NCBI GenBank assembly: GCA_009692985.1 | Contig: SHYF01000029.1 | Span: 1-14,034 of the forward strand | From: Dehalococcoidia bacterium | GTDB taxonomy: Bacteria > Chloroflexota > Dehalococcoidia > Lucifugimonadales > SHYF01 | Direction: 5' to 3' | DNA length: 14,034 nucleotides | Shown: in pieces, positions 3,772 through 4,692 of the stretch | How positions within the stretch are numbered: the stretch's first letter is position 1 | Layout: each line of letters opens with the position of its first letter | The notes under the pieces: model-generated | Told to the model about the DNA's origin: nothing | What the model saw: only the letters and a program-made list of their open reading frames with translations | Database searches by the model: none | Position numbers and translations under genes: made by a program

Positions 3772-4239
3772 CTACTTTGCACCTAGGGTCTTGAGAAACT
3801 CCAGAGACTCGGTAGCATGTTGCTCCGTGTTCTGGGTATCCTGAATGATGTGGCGGATAACGCCTTTCTTATCTATCACAAAGGTAACGCGACTATCCGT
3901 CATGCGTTCTTCGTTGTACACGCCGAATGCTTTGGCGGCTGCAAAGACGGGGAAGTCCGCCACCAGCGGGAACGTCAGGCTGCAATGGTCGGCGAAGGCC
4001 TTCTGAGGTGGAGCGGCGTCGGTGCTGGCACCCAGGACCTGGGTGTCTAGCTGCTGGAACTCCGAGAGCAAGCTCTGGAACTTCCGCAGCTCGCGCTCTC
4101 AGCCACCGGTGAACGCACGGGCATAGAAAGCAAGGACCAGGTTCTGCTTTCCGCCAAAGCCCTGGAGAGGCACCTCTGTGCGGTCTGCTGCGCGGAAGCT
4201 CACGTTCGGAACTTGGTCACCAACTTTGAGCAGCGGCAT
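3772..4239 (-). CDS. Selenocysteine-containing peroxiredoxin (AhpE/BCP-like), UGA at codon 47
   Basis: The gene encodes a 155-residue thioredoxin-fold peroxidase that would reduce hydroperoxides. ATG 4237-4239 has AGGAG six bases upstream (4246-4250). The frame is interrupted only by TGA at 4099-4101. Sequence before it (MPLLKVGDQVPNVSF..., NLVLAFYARAFTGG) and after it (ERELRKFQSLLSEF...) is colinear with peroxiredoxins. The TGA falls exactly on the peroxidatic cysteine of the T-x-x-C motif (mycobacterial AhpE has AFTGIC, this gene AFTGG-UGA). Arg117 of the active site (DSRVTFVID) is present. Pro of the PxxxTxxC motif is Ala40, and Cys86 is the only cysteine. A stem-loop starts at the TGA. 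Selenocysteine insertion is the best reading; sequencing error or a nonsense mutation at this very codon is the alternative. Automatic calling would start at a TTG near 4071 and lose the catalytic third. Confidence 0.85.
4064..4101 (-). promoter_or_regulatory. Candidate bacterial SECIS element with its UGA codon
   Basis: Just after the in-frame TGA the transcript can fold. GAGAGC (4100-4095, including GA of the TGA) pairs perfectly with GCTCTC (4069-4064). Inside, CT..GGA (4089-4083) pairs with TCC.AG (4079-4075) around a small AGU loop at 4082-4080. An alternative inner pairing, AGCT with AGCT (4091-4088 with 4074-4071), competes. The apical loop is 16 bases downstream of the UGA, within the short spacing used by bacterial SECIS hairpins to bind SelB. 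The fold was drawn by hand, without energy calculation. Confidence 0.5.
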
Positions 4240-4479: not shown

Positions 4480-4692
4480 ATGGCAAACTTAGCAGATTTC
4501 TGGAACCGTTTGAGCAAGGGCCCAGCGATCCTTTTCCTCGGACAAGACTACTTCAAGGTTGAGAGTGGCAATGATCCTCTACTGATCGAGATTCAGAACA
4601 AGTTTGGGGGTTCGATGACAAGCGGGCCCCACTACGATCTTCTGCTGGAAAGCACGGCTAAGCAGTCTGGAGATGCAGCCCTAGCATGGTGA
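4480..4692 (+). pseudogene. Truncated 5' end of a SIR2-like/STAND-type protein gene
   Basis: ATG 4480 has an excellent Shine-Dalgarno (AGGAGG, 4468-4473, six-base spacer), so this is the genuine start of a gene. It ends after 70 codons at TGA 4690-4692, and repeat copy 3 begins within a few bases. The peptide begins MANLADFWNRLSKGPAILFLGQD and continues with a DPLL segment and ...GDAALAW. The GPAILFLGQ strand-loop recalls the nucleotide-binding start of SIR2-like proteins in large bacterial multi-domain ATPases, some of which act in phage defence. That is my recollection of the pattern, not a search result. No continuation in any frame was established downstream. It is probably a gene broken by insertion or deletion; a real 70-residue protein is less likely. 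Confidence 0.5.

Follow-up and report, generated by a model that had tools for sequence, protein, structure and literature searches.

A selenocysteine-containing peroxiredoxin predicted in a Dehalococcoidia bacterium, and the association of selenocysteine with the absence of the active-site proline among its relatives

The window, i.e. the whole stretch of 14,034 nucleotides that was analyzed, is contig C29 of an assembly of 1.3 Mb in 128 contigs (71% complete, 0.89% contamination). When TGA is read as selenocysteine (Sec, U), a frame on its minus strand yields a product of 155 residues, MPLLKVG...FYARAFTGGUERELRKF...KTLGAK, that contains one TGA only, at U47 (Table 1). The Pfam profile AhpC-TSA (PF00578) spans the TGA, matching residues 6-131 at 101.4 bits (cut-off 26), and the TGA aligns with the peroxidatic cysteine of AhpE from Mycobacterium tuberculosis (E 1.5e-23). 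These data bear out the first-pass annotation, which had described one open peroxiredoxin frame broken by a single TGA in place of the C of the T-x-x-C motif. Thr44 and Arg117 are present, and the residue at position -7 from U47, a Pro in PxxxTxxC, is Ala40. The membership of the protein in PF00578, where Pro at -7 is usual, is by profile score, and in the tree the Ala40 protein, which lacks the Pro at -7 of the PxxxT/SxxC motif, fell within a group of homologues that carry it.

Table 1. Positions, in window coordinates, of the peroxiredoxin gene and of its predicted features
Feature	Position	Strand	Basis
AAGGAG, ribosome-binding-site-like, ahead of ATG 4239	4251-4246	minus	sequence reading
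Sec peroxiredoxin gene, 155 codons and a TAG stop	4239-3772	minus	frame read with TGA as U, profile, homologues
Start ATG	4239-4237	minus	
Ala40 codon GCC, position of the active-site proline	4122-4120	minus	
Thr44 codon, catalytic Thr of TxxU	4110-4108	minus	
UGA read as Sec47, peroxidatic position of TxxU	4101-4099	minus	alignment, Sec machinery
Predicted bacterial SECIS hairpin, 7-base spacer after UGA	4091-4049	minus	folding, synonymous-site constraint
Cys86 codon, candidate resolving cysteine	3984-3982	minus	present in 17 of 18 subfamily members
Arg117 codon, conserved active-site Arg	3891-3889	minus	R in all 117 Sec rows and all 74 Cys rows
Stop TAG	3774-3772	minus	

Two further elements were observed next to the gene. 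The 3' end of a tRNA (T arm and CCA end) lies about 70 bases upstream of the ATG, at 4339-4311 of the minus strand, and the same 25-mer, without mismatch, forms the end of two intact tRNA-Gly genes in the assembly, with anticodons TCC (on C27) and CCC (on C48). No tRNA was called within the window, and the fragment may be an integration scar or a tRNA remnant. A short open frame of 70 amino acids on the plus strand (4480-4692), which diverges from the gene, reads by eye like the truncated N terminus of a protein.

The first-pass annotation had supposed that the cell makes selenoproteins and had proposed a search of the same genome for the sel genes, naming a lineage devoid of selB and tRNA-Sec as the finding that would speak against it. 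The search supported the supposition, as the complete set was located in the host assembly: selB on C61 (350 bits, cut-off 242), selA on C32 (571 bits, cut-off 268), selD on C31 (373 bits, cut-off 125) and a tRNA-Sec on C56 (65.6 bits, gathering score 47). ARAGORN called the latter tRNA-SeC with anticodon TCA, and the folded molecule shows a long variable arm and, on manual reading, an 8-pair acceptor stem and G73; the other match above the Rfam tRNA-Sec score in the assembly was an ordinary tRNA-Ser. The selD gene (L015, G000 C31 6464-7384) itself appears to encode a selenoprotein, as it has an in-frame TGA in the context HCAGUASK. A genome-wide reassignment of TGA, e.g. to Trp (table 4) or to Gly (table 25), would also produce in-frame TGA codons in the peroxiredoxin gene and in selD, but this explanation is extremely improbable given that the TGA occupies a Cys column, neither a Trp nor a Gly one, that TGA remains a stop codon and ends 3 of the 12 window genes checked, and that selA, selB and tRNA-Sec are present.

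The selA gene was found in 201 of the 250 genomes of the host's order. According to a hand count, 98 of the 113 order genomes listed with a TGA-containing peroxiredoxin also have selA, and the remaining 15, which gave no selA match, are incomplete assemblies (60-90% complete). In genus g44 of family f27 (G076-G085; genomes of 0.7-1.5 Mb, 55-89% complete), eight genomes are recorded as having no selA match, and the remaining two do not appear among the rows that have one. The sole genome of this genus that was read, G084, carries a Cys peroxiredoxin (L137). The genus has possibly lost the whole Sec trait.

Peroxiredoxin matches at E 1e-10 or better were detected in 234 of the 250 order genomes. 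Among the best 150 of these matches by E-value, 115, belonging to 113 genomes, contain an in-frame TGA and 35 do not (hand count), and in every one of the 87 TGA matches that were fetched and read the TGA stands at the peroxidatic column, as it does in L050, also read, the second copy of a genome of the same genus (G147). This genome, the nearest relative, has two Sec peroxiredoxin copies, L018 and L050, with one TGA each, and their products are 85% and 84% identical, respectively, to the window protein. The fetched loci, with identical sequences entered once, gave an alignment of 191 distinct sequences that have TGA (117) or Cys (74) at the site. Of the TGA sequences, 87 came from the order list, 2 from genome_contigs and 28 from a phylum-wide draw of 400 genomes, 382 of them with a match at 1e-15. 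These shares do not represent natural frequencies, because 40 of the stretches were picked by hand from the listed rows, half with and half without TGA. Homologues with Cys or U at this column, the support that the first-pass annotation had looked to, are therefore at hand. A Sec peroxiredoxin is expected to have an in-frame UGA at the peroxidatic cysteine together with Cys homologues, and both were found here.

Among the full-length Cys homologues, identity to the window protein reaches 74% (in P0002). P0002-P0006 and L053, which belong to the same subfamily and have the same length (61-74% identity), differ from the window protein by Cys at the site and by Pro at -7; the Cys codon of L053 is TGT, and P0002-P0006 were compared as proteins. 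Sixteen related loci lie in named genomes. Eight of these are Dehalococcoidia, Chloroflexi or SAR202 metagenome genomes, and the other eight, one Prochlorococcus and seven Paenibacillus/Bacillus, all contain Cys forms. The L018 protein is identical to L048 of "Dehalococcoidia bacterium isolate E14_concoct.bin.151_sub", and the L023 protein (G145, same order) to L054 of "SAR202-VI-29A". A viral origin was discarded, since neither of the two viral_contigs stretches that matched a pattern encodes a relative. When the eight loci L047-L054 were compared by eye, no neighbour common to all of them was seen that could be an operon partner, and we therefore put forward no reductase as a partner; L047 and L051, whose genomes belong to one genus, have a common upstream open reading frame that reads like RadA.

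As many as 29 of the 46 database homologues are only 92-105 residues long and correspond to the 3' piece, and the short homologues with visible sequence starts begin downstream of the active site. This fits the prediction that standard annotation would report a headless fragment of 99 residues. Such annotation hides the enzyme, the pieces being too short to include the active site, and the TGA-containing peroxiredoxin, with at least 113 of 250 genomes, seems to be a common defence against peroxides in this large uncultured order of Chloroflexota.

The comparison of the window gene with seven relatives gave pN/pS values of 0.18-0.31 for codons 1-46 and of 0.17-0.30 for codons 65-155. These low values before the TGA and after the hairpin region indicate that both halves are kept as protein, and purifying selection acts on both sides of the TGA. 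A pseudogene or a sequencing error would require a single substitution, from the Cys codon TGC or TGT to TGA, whether in the cell or in the base call, and a Cys homologue as close as P0002 exists, but the sharing of the TGA by the order matches and by the distinct sequences counted above, together with the selection on the codons downstream of it, refutes this as a general explanation and leaves it with a negligible likelihood.

The region just downstream of the UGA is predicted to form a bacterial SECIS hairpin, with 18 pairs in the consensus fold of nine sequences and an apical loop CUUG at 4072-4069, 27-30 nucleotides after the UGA. In codons 48-64, pS was 0.00 with respect to L018 (0.44 on both flanks) and 0.00 with respect to L050 (0.43 and 0.45 on the flanks), and it was 0.18-0.45 with respect to five further relatives (0.55-0.77 elsewhere), each comparison covering only about 11 synonymous sites in these codons. 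This synonymous constraint is the mark of an RNA element. In agreement with it, the 54 nucleotides after the UGA of 89 Sec genes folded more stably than their synonymous shuffles (mean z -1.79, 73% below -1), whereas the same stretch of 34 Cys homologues gave a mean z of -0.33 (18% below -1), and the next two stretches of the Sec genes gave means of -0.10 and -0.45. The difference between Sec and Cys genes had a Mann-Whitney p of 6e-8, calculated on rows that are related by descent and not independent. The predicted loops fell 21-29 bases past the UGA in 77 of 109 cases for Sec genes versus 16 of 54 for Cys genes. The fold of the window gene itself reached only a z of -1.05 against dinucleotide shuffles.

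Covariation in the hairpin was weak: one pair changed on both sides, a result matched by 389 of 500 shuffles. The changes are too few for covariation to serve as proof, and the hairpin therefore rests on energy and on synonymous-site constraint. The cells of the hairpin were paired in 93.8% of cases versus 27-46% in slid controls, partly because the structure was derived from the same sequences. A single SECIS consensus across distant genes was also discarded, as RNAalifold returned no common structure over 80 more distant Sec genes, over 54 Pro-less Sec genes or over 34 Cys genes. Bacterial SECIS elements are expected to have a G among the first two loop bases. This rule did not separate Sec from Cys genes (43 of 89 versus 18 of 34), and the lowest-energy loop of the window gene, CUUG, has its G outside the first two bases. 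The feature given in PMC1088965, a small apical loop containing G, is present in the CUUG hairpin, which follows the UGA directly as a stem-loop.

An AlphaFold2 model of the protein, with Cys in place of Sec, had a mean pLDDT of 93.2, and its best fold matches were the crystal structures of Bcp1 and AhpE (TM 0.84-0.90 by query length). Taken together, the computed results, which cover the frame, the site, the machinery in the same assembly, conservation, selection, the RNA constraint and the fold, make it almost certain that the gene encodes a functional AhpE/BCP-type peroxiredoxin that contains Sec, with Sec47 in the peroxidatic role; from them we infer its expression, the insertion of Sec in vivo and the peroxidase activity. 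SelA and SelD would make Sec-tRNA(UCA), which SelB, bound to the hairpin just 3' of the UGA, would deliver to give the enzyme of 155 residues. In line with established peroxiredoxin chemistry, the selenolate present at cell pH would attack the peroxide, with Thr and Arg stabilizing it. Sec47, held by Thr44 and Arg117, would accordingly be expected to reduce hydroperoxides and to become a selenenic acid, which would be resolved by a thiol, either that of Cys86 of the same protein or that of an external donor. Cys86 is the only other cysteine of the window protein. Within the subfamily all 10 Sec members and 7 of the 8 Cys members have it, compared with only 8 of the 184 other rows, and it may thus act as a resolving residue in this subfamily. 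Alternatively, the thiol may come from outside, as it must in many other Sec forms, 44 of the 117 Sec rows having no second cysteine in the aligned part.

The change of Pro to Ala that the first-pass annotation had noted as an oddity is real and belongs to a wider pattern across the Sec forms. The conserved proline of peroxiredoxins is described as a barrier to solvent in a structural paper (PMC3337327). In a set of 202 rows, it was absent from 80 of 117 Sec forms versus 7 of 85 Cys forms. The rows of the order and of genome_contigs, taken together with the database proteins, kept it in 28 of 89 Sec versus 44 of 50 Cys cases, and those of the phylum-wide draw in 9 of 28 Sec versus 39 of 40 Cys cases. 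It was likewise kept in all 120 listed relatives of one Cys paralogue (120 of the 6422 found). The tree of the 202 rows, built from few columns and without those around the active site, required a minimum of 15 changes for Sec/Cys and of 14 for Pro/non-Pro. P0039, P0041, P0042, P0044 and P0046 were included in the first tree and left out of this second one, and P0047 was left out as it has no motif.

A four-state model of correlated evolution was preferred over independence (LR 19.2, 4 df, p 0.0007), the estimated rate of Pro loss being 0.047 where the site is Cys and 0.816 where it is Sec, and a model in which only Pro gain and loss depend on Sec gave an LR above 6 in 20 of 20 bootstrap trees. 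When the phylum draw and the database proteins were analyzed alone (79 rows), the association stayed (LR 14.4), and so did its direction. Removal of the Pro-less rows with His39, the largest Pro-less group, also left the association in place (LR 18.1, 147 rows), but the rates were reversed in this set, with a fast regain of Pro in Cys rather than a fast loss in Sec backgrounds, and bootstrap trees 11 and 16 showed low rates of Pro loss in Sec (0.004 and 0.135). The rate estimates are thus unstable, which makes the order of events, Sec first and then loss of Pro, less sure than the association. From these sequence comparisons the proline appears to have been relaxed after the acquisition of Sec, and this is the least sure step. 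A second trait tied to Sec, E50Q, was discarded, as its independent pairs had no direction (0.8 versus 1.0).

The Pro-less Cys rows are seven: five of family f34 (L086, L087, L103, L123 and L124, from genomes G165-G169), L208 and P0015. The f34 rows fall inside the Pro-less Sec clade in the best tree, on a long branch, and selA is kept in four of the five genomes, which fits a reversion from Sec to Cys. By their sequences and placement, they look like Sec-to-Cys reversions in which the altered pocket has been retained.

The proline might have been lost by neutral drift in a few clades of Sec peroxiredoxins, without relation to selenium. In line with such drift, part of the Sec rows keep Pro and the seven Cys rows just named lack it, both gene trees are poorly resolved, and a sign test on seven independent pairs across supported branches was not significant (median p 0.25; 3.0 pairs agreed with the association, 0.1 opposed it and 3.9 showed no difference), a test that lacks power. 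Against drift stand the correlated evolution recovered in all bootstrap trees, the recurrence of the pattern in the phylum-wide draw and the retention of Pro throughout the listed close homologues of the Cys paralogue; the f34 rows are placed as expected for reversions, and none of the 191 rows has lost the Thr/Ser at -3 or the active-site Arg. We therefore consider drift a possible but rather doubtful explanation.

A dependence of the proline on selenium can be given a chemical rationale. In Cys enzymes the proline screens the reactive position. A selenolate is a strong nucleophile even when it is shielded less tightly than a thiolate has to be, and the proline may therefore have become dispensable. 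As the Pro codon precedes the UGA and is not part of the hairpin, the SECIS element would not explain its loss. Our proposal, about which we are evenly divided, is that Sec frees peroxiredoxins from a nearly universal proline, which would have been lost repeatedly and independently (to Ala, Val, Ile, Leu and others) to give a distinct class of active site, possibly with wider access for peroxides, and that the f34 reversions keep the altered pocket. If the pattern is real, the natural Sec/Cys pairs with up to 74% identity, with and without Pro, provide a clean test, both of the benefit that an enzyme draws from selenium and of the role of the proline in peroxiredoxins. Among the listed titles and abstract beginnings of open-licence papers on the active-site proline, Sec and PxxxTxxC, none described the loss of Pro in Sec forms, and no title listed for selenoproteins of SAR202/Dehalococcoidia in this literature dealt with this enzyme, which is weak evidence of absence.

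Among known systems, the 1-Cys peroxiredoxin AhpE of M. tuberculosis (PDB 1xvw, 4x0x and 5id2) is the best PDB sequence match, and it has the same fold as the window protein (TM 0.85-0.87 by query length) with the active-site Thr and Arg aligned. It differs by Cys where the window protein has Sec, at about 35% identity, and by keeping the Pro (FFPLAFTGIC in the alignment) that is Ala40 here. The top fold match is Bcp1 of Sulfolobus solfataricus (PrxQ/BCP type, PDB 3drn; E 7.1e-17, TM 0.87-0.90), which is 33-34% identical. In PrxQ-type enzymes the resolving Cys sits five residues after the peroxidatic one, and the window protein lacks it (UERELR). As to the AhpE subfamily, which is of the 1-Cys type, AhpE is the best PDB match by sequence and Bcp1 the best by fold, and a second cysteine, C86, is conserved in 17 of 18 members of the window protein's own subfamily. 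The latter was found in Chloroflexota (Dehalococcoidia/SAR202-type).

The Sec peroxiredoxins with TxxU, i.e. PrxU of Eubacterium acidaminophilum and metagenomic examples, likewise have UGA at the peroxidatic Cys, belong to PF00578 and depend on the bacterial Sec machinery. As the first-pass annotation had stated, they are a known class, and the literature confirms it: two reviews treat them, PrxU included (PMC9312934 and PMC13188914), and other articles count 43 of their genes in the Sargasso Sea (PMC1088965), 253 in GOS (PMC2398784) and 91 in 78 organisms (PMC5029168) and apparently five Cys-to-Sec events (PMC1794560). The motif that PMC13188914 gives for the TxxU family and calls highly conserved is PxxxTxxU, and that of the window protein is AxxxTxxU, PrxU being compared here by description. 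The window protein is thus an additional member of the established family of Sec peroxiredoxins. Any novelty would lie in the loss of the proline in Sec forms, since Sec peroxiredoxins as a class were known before.
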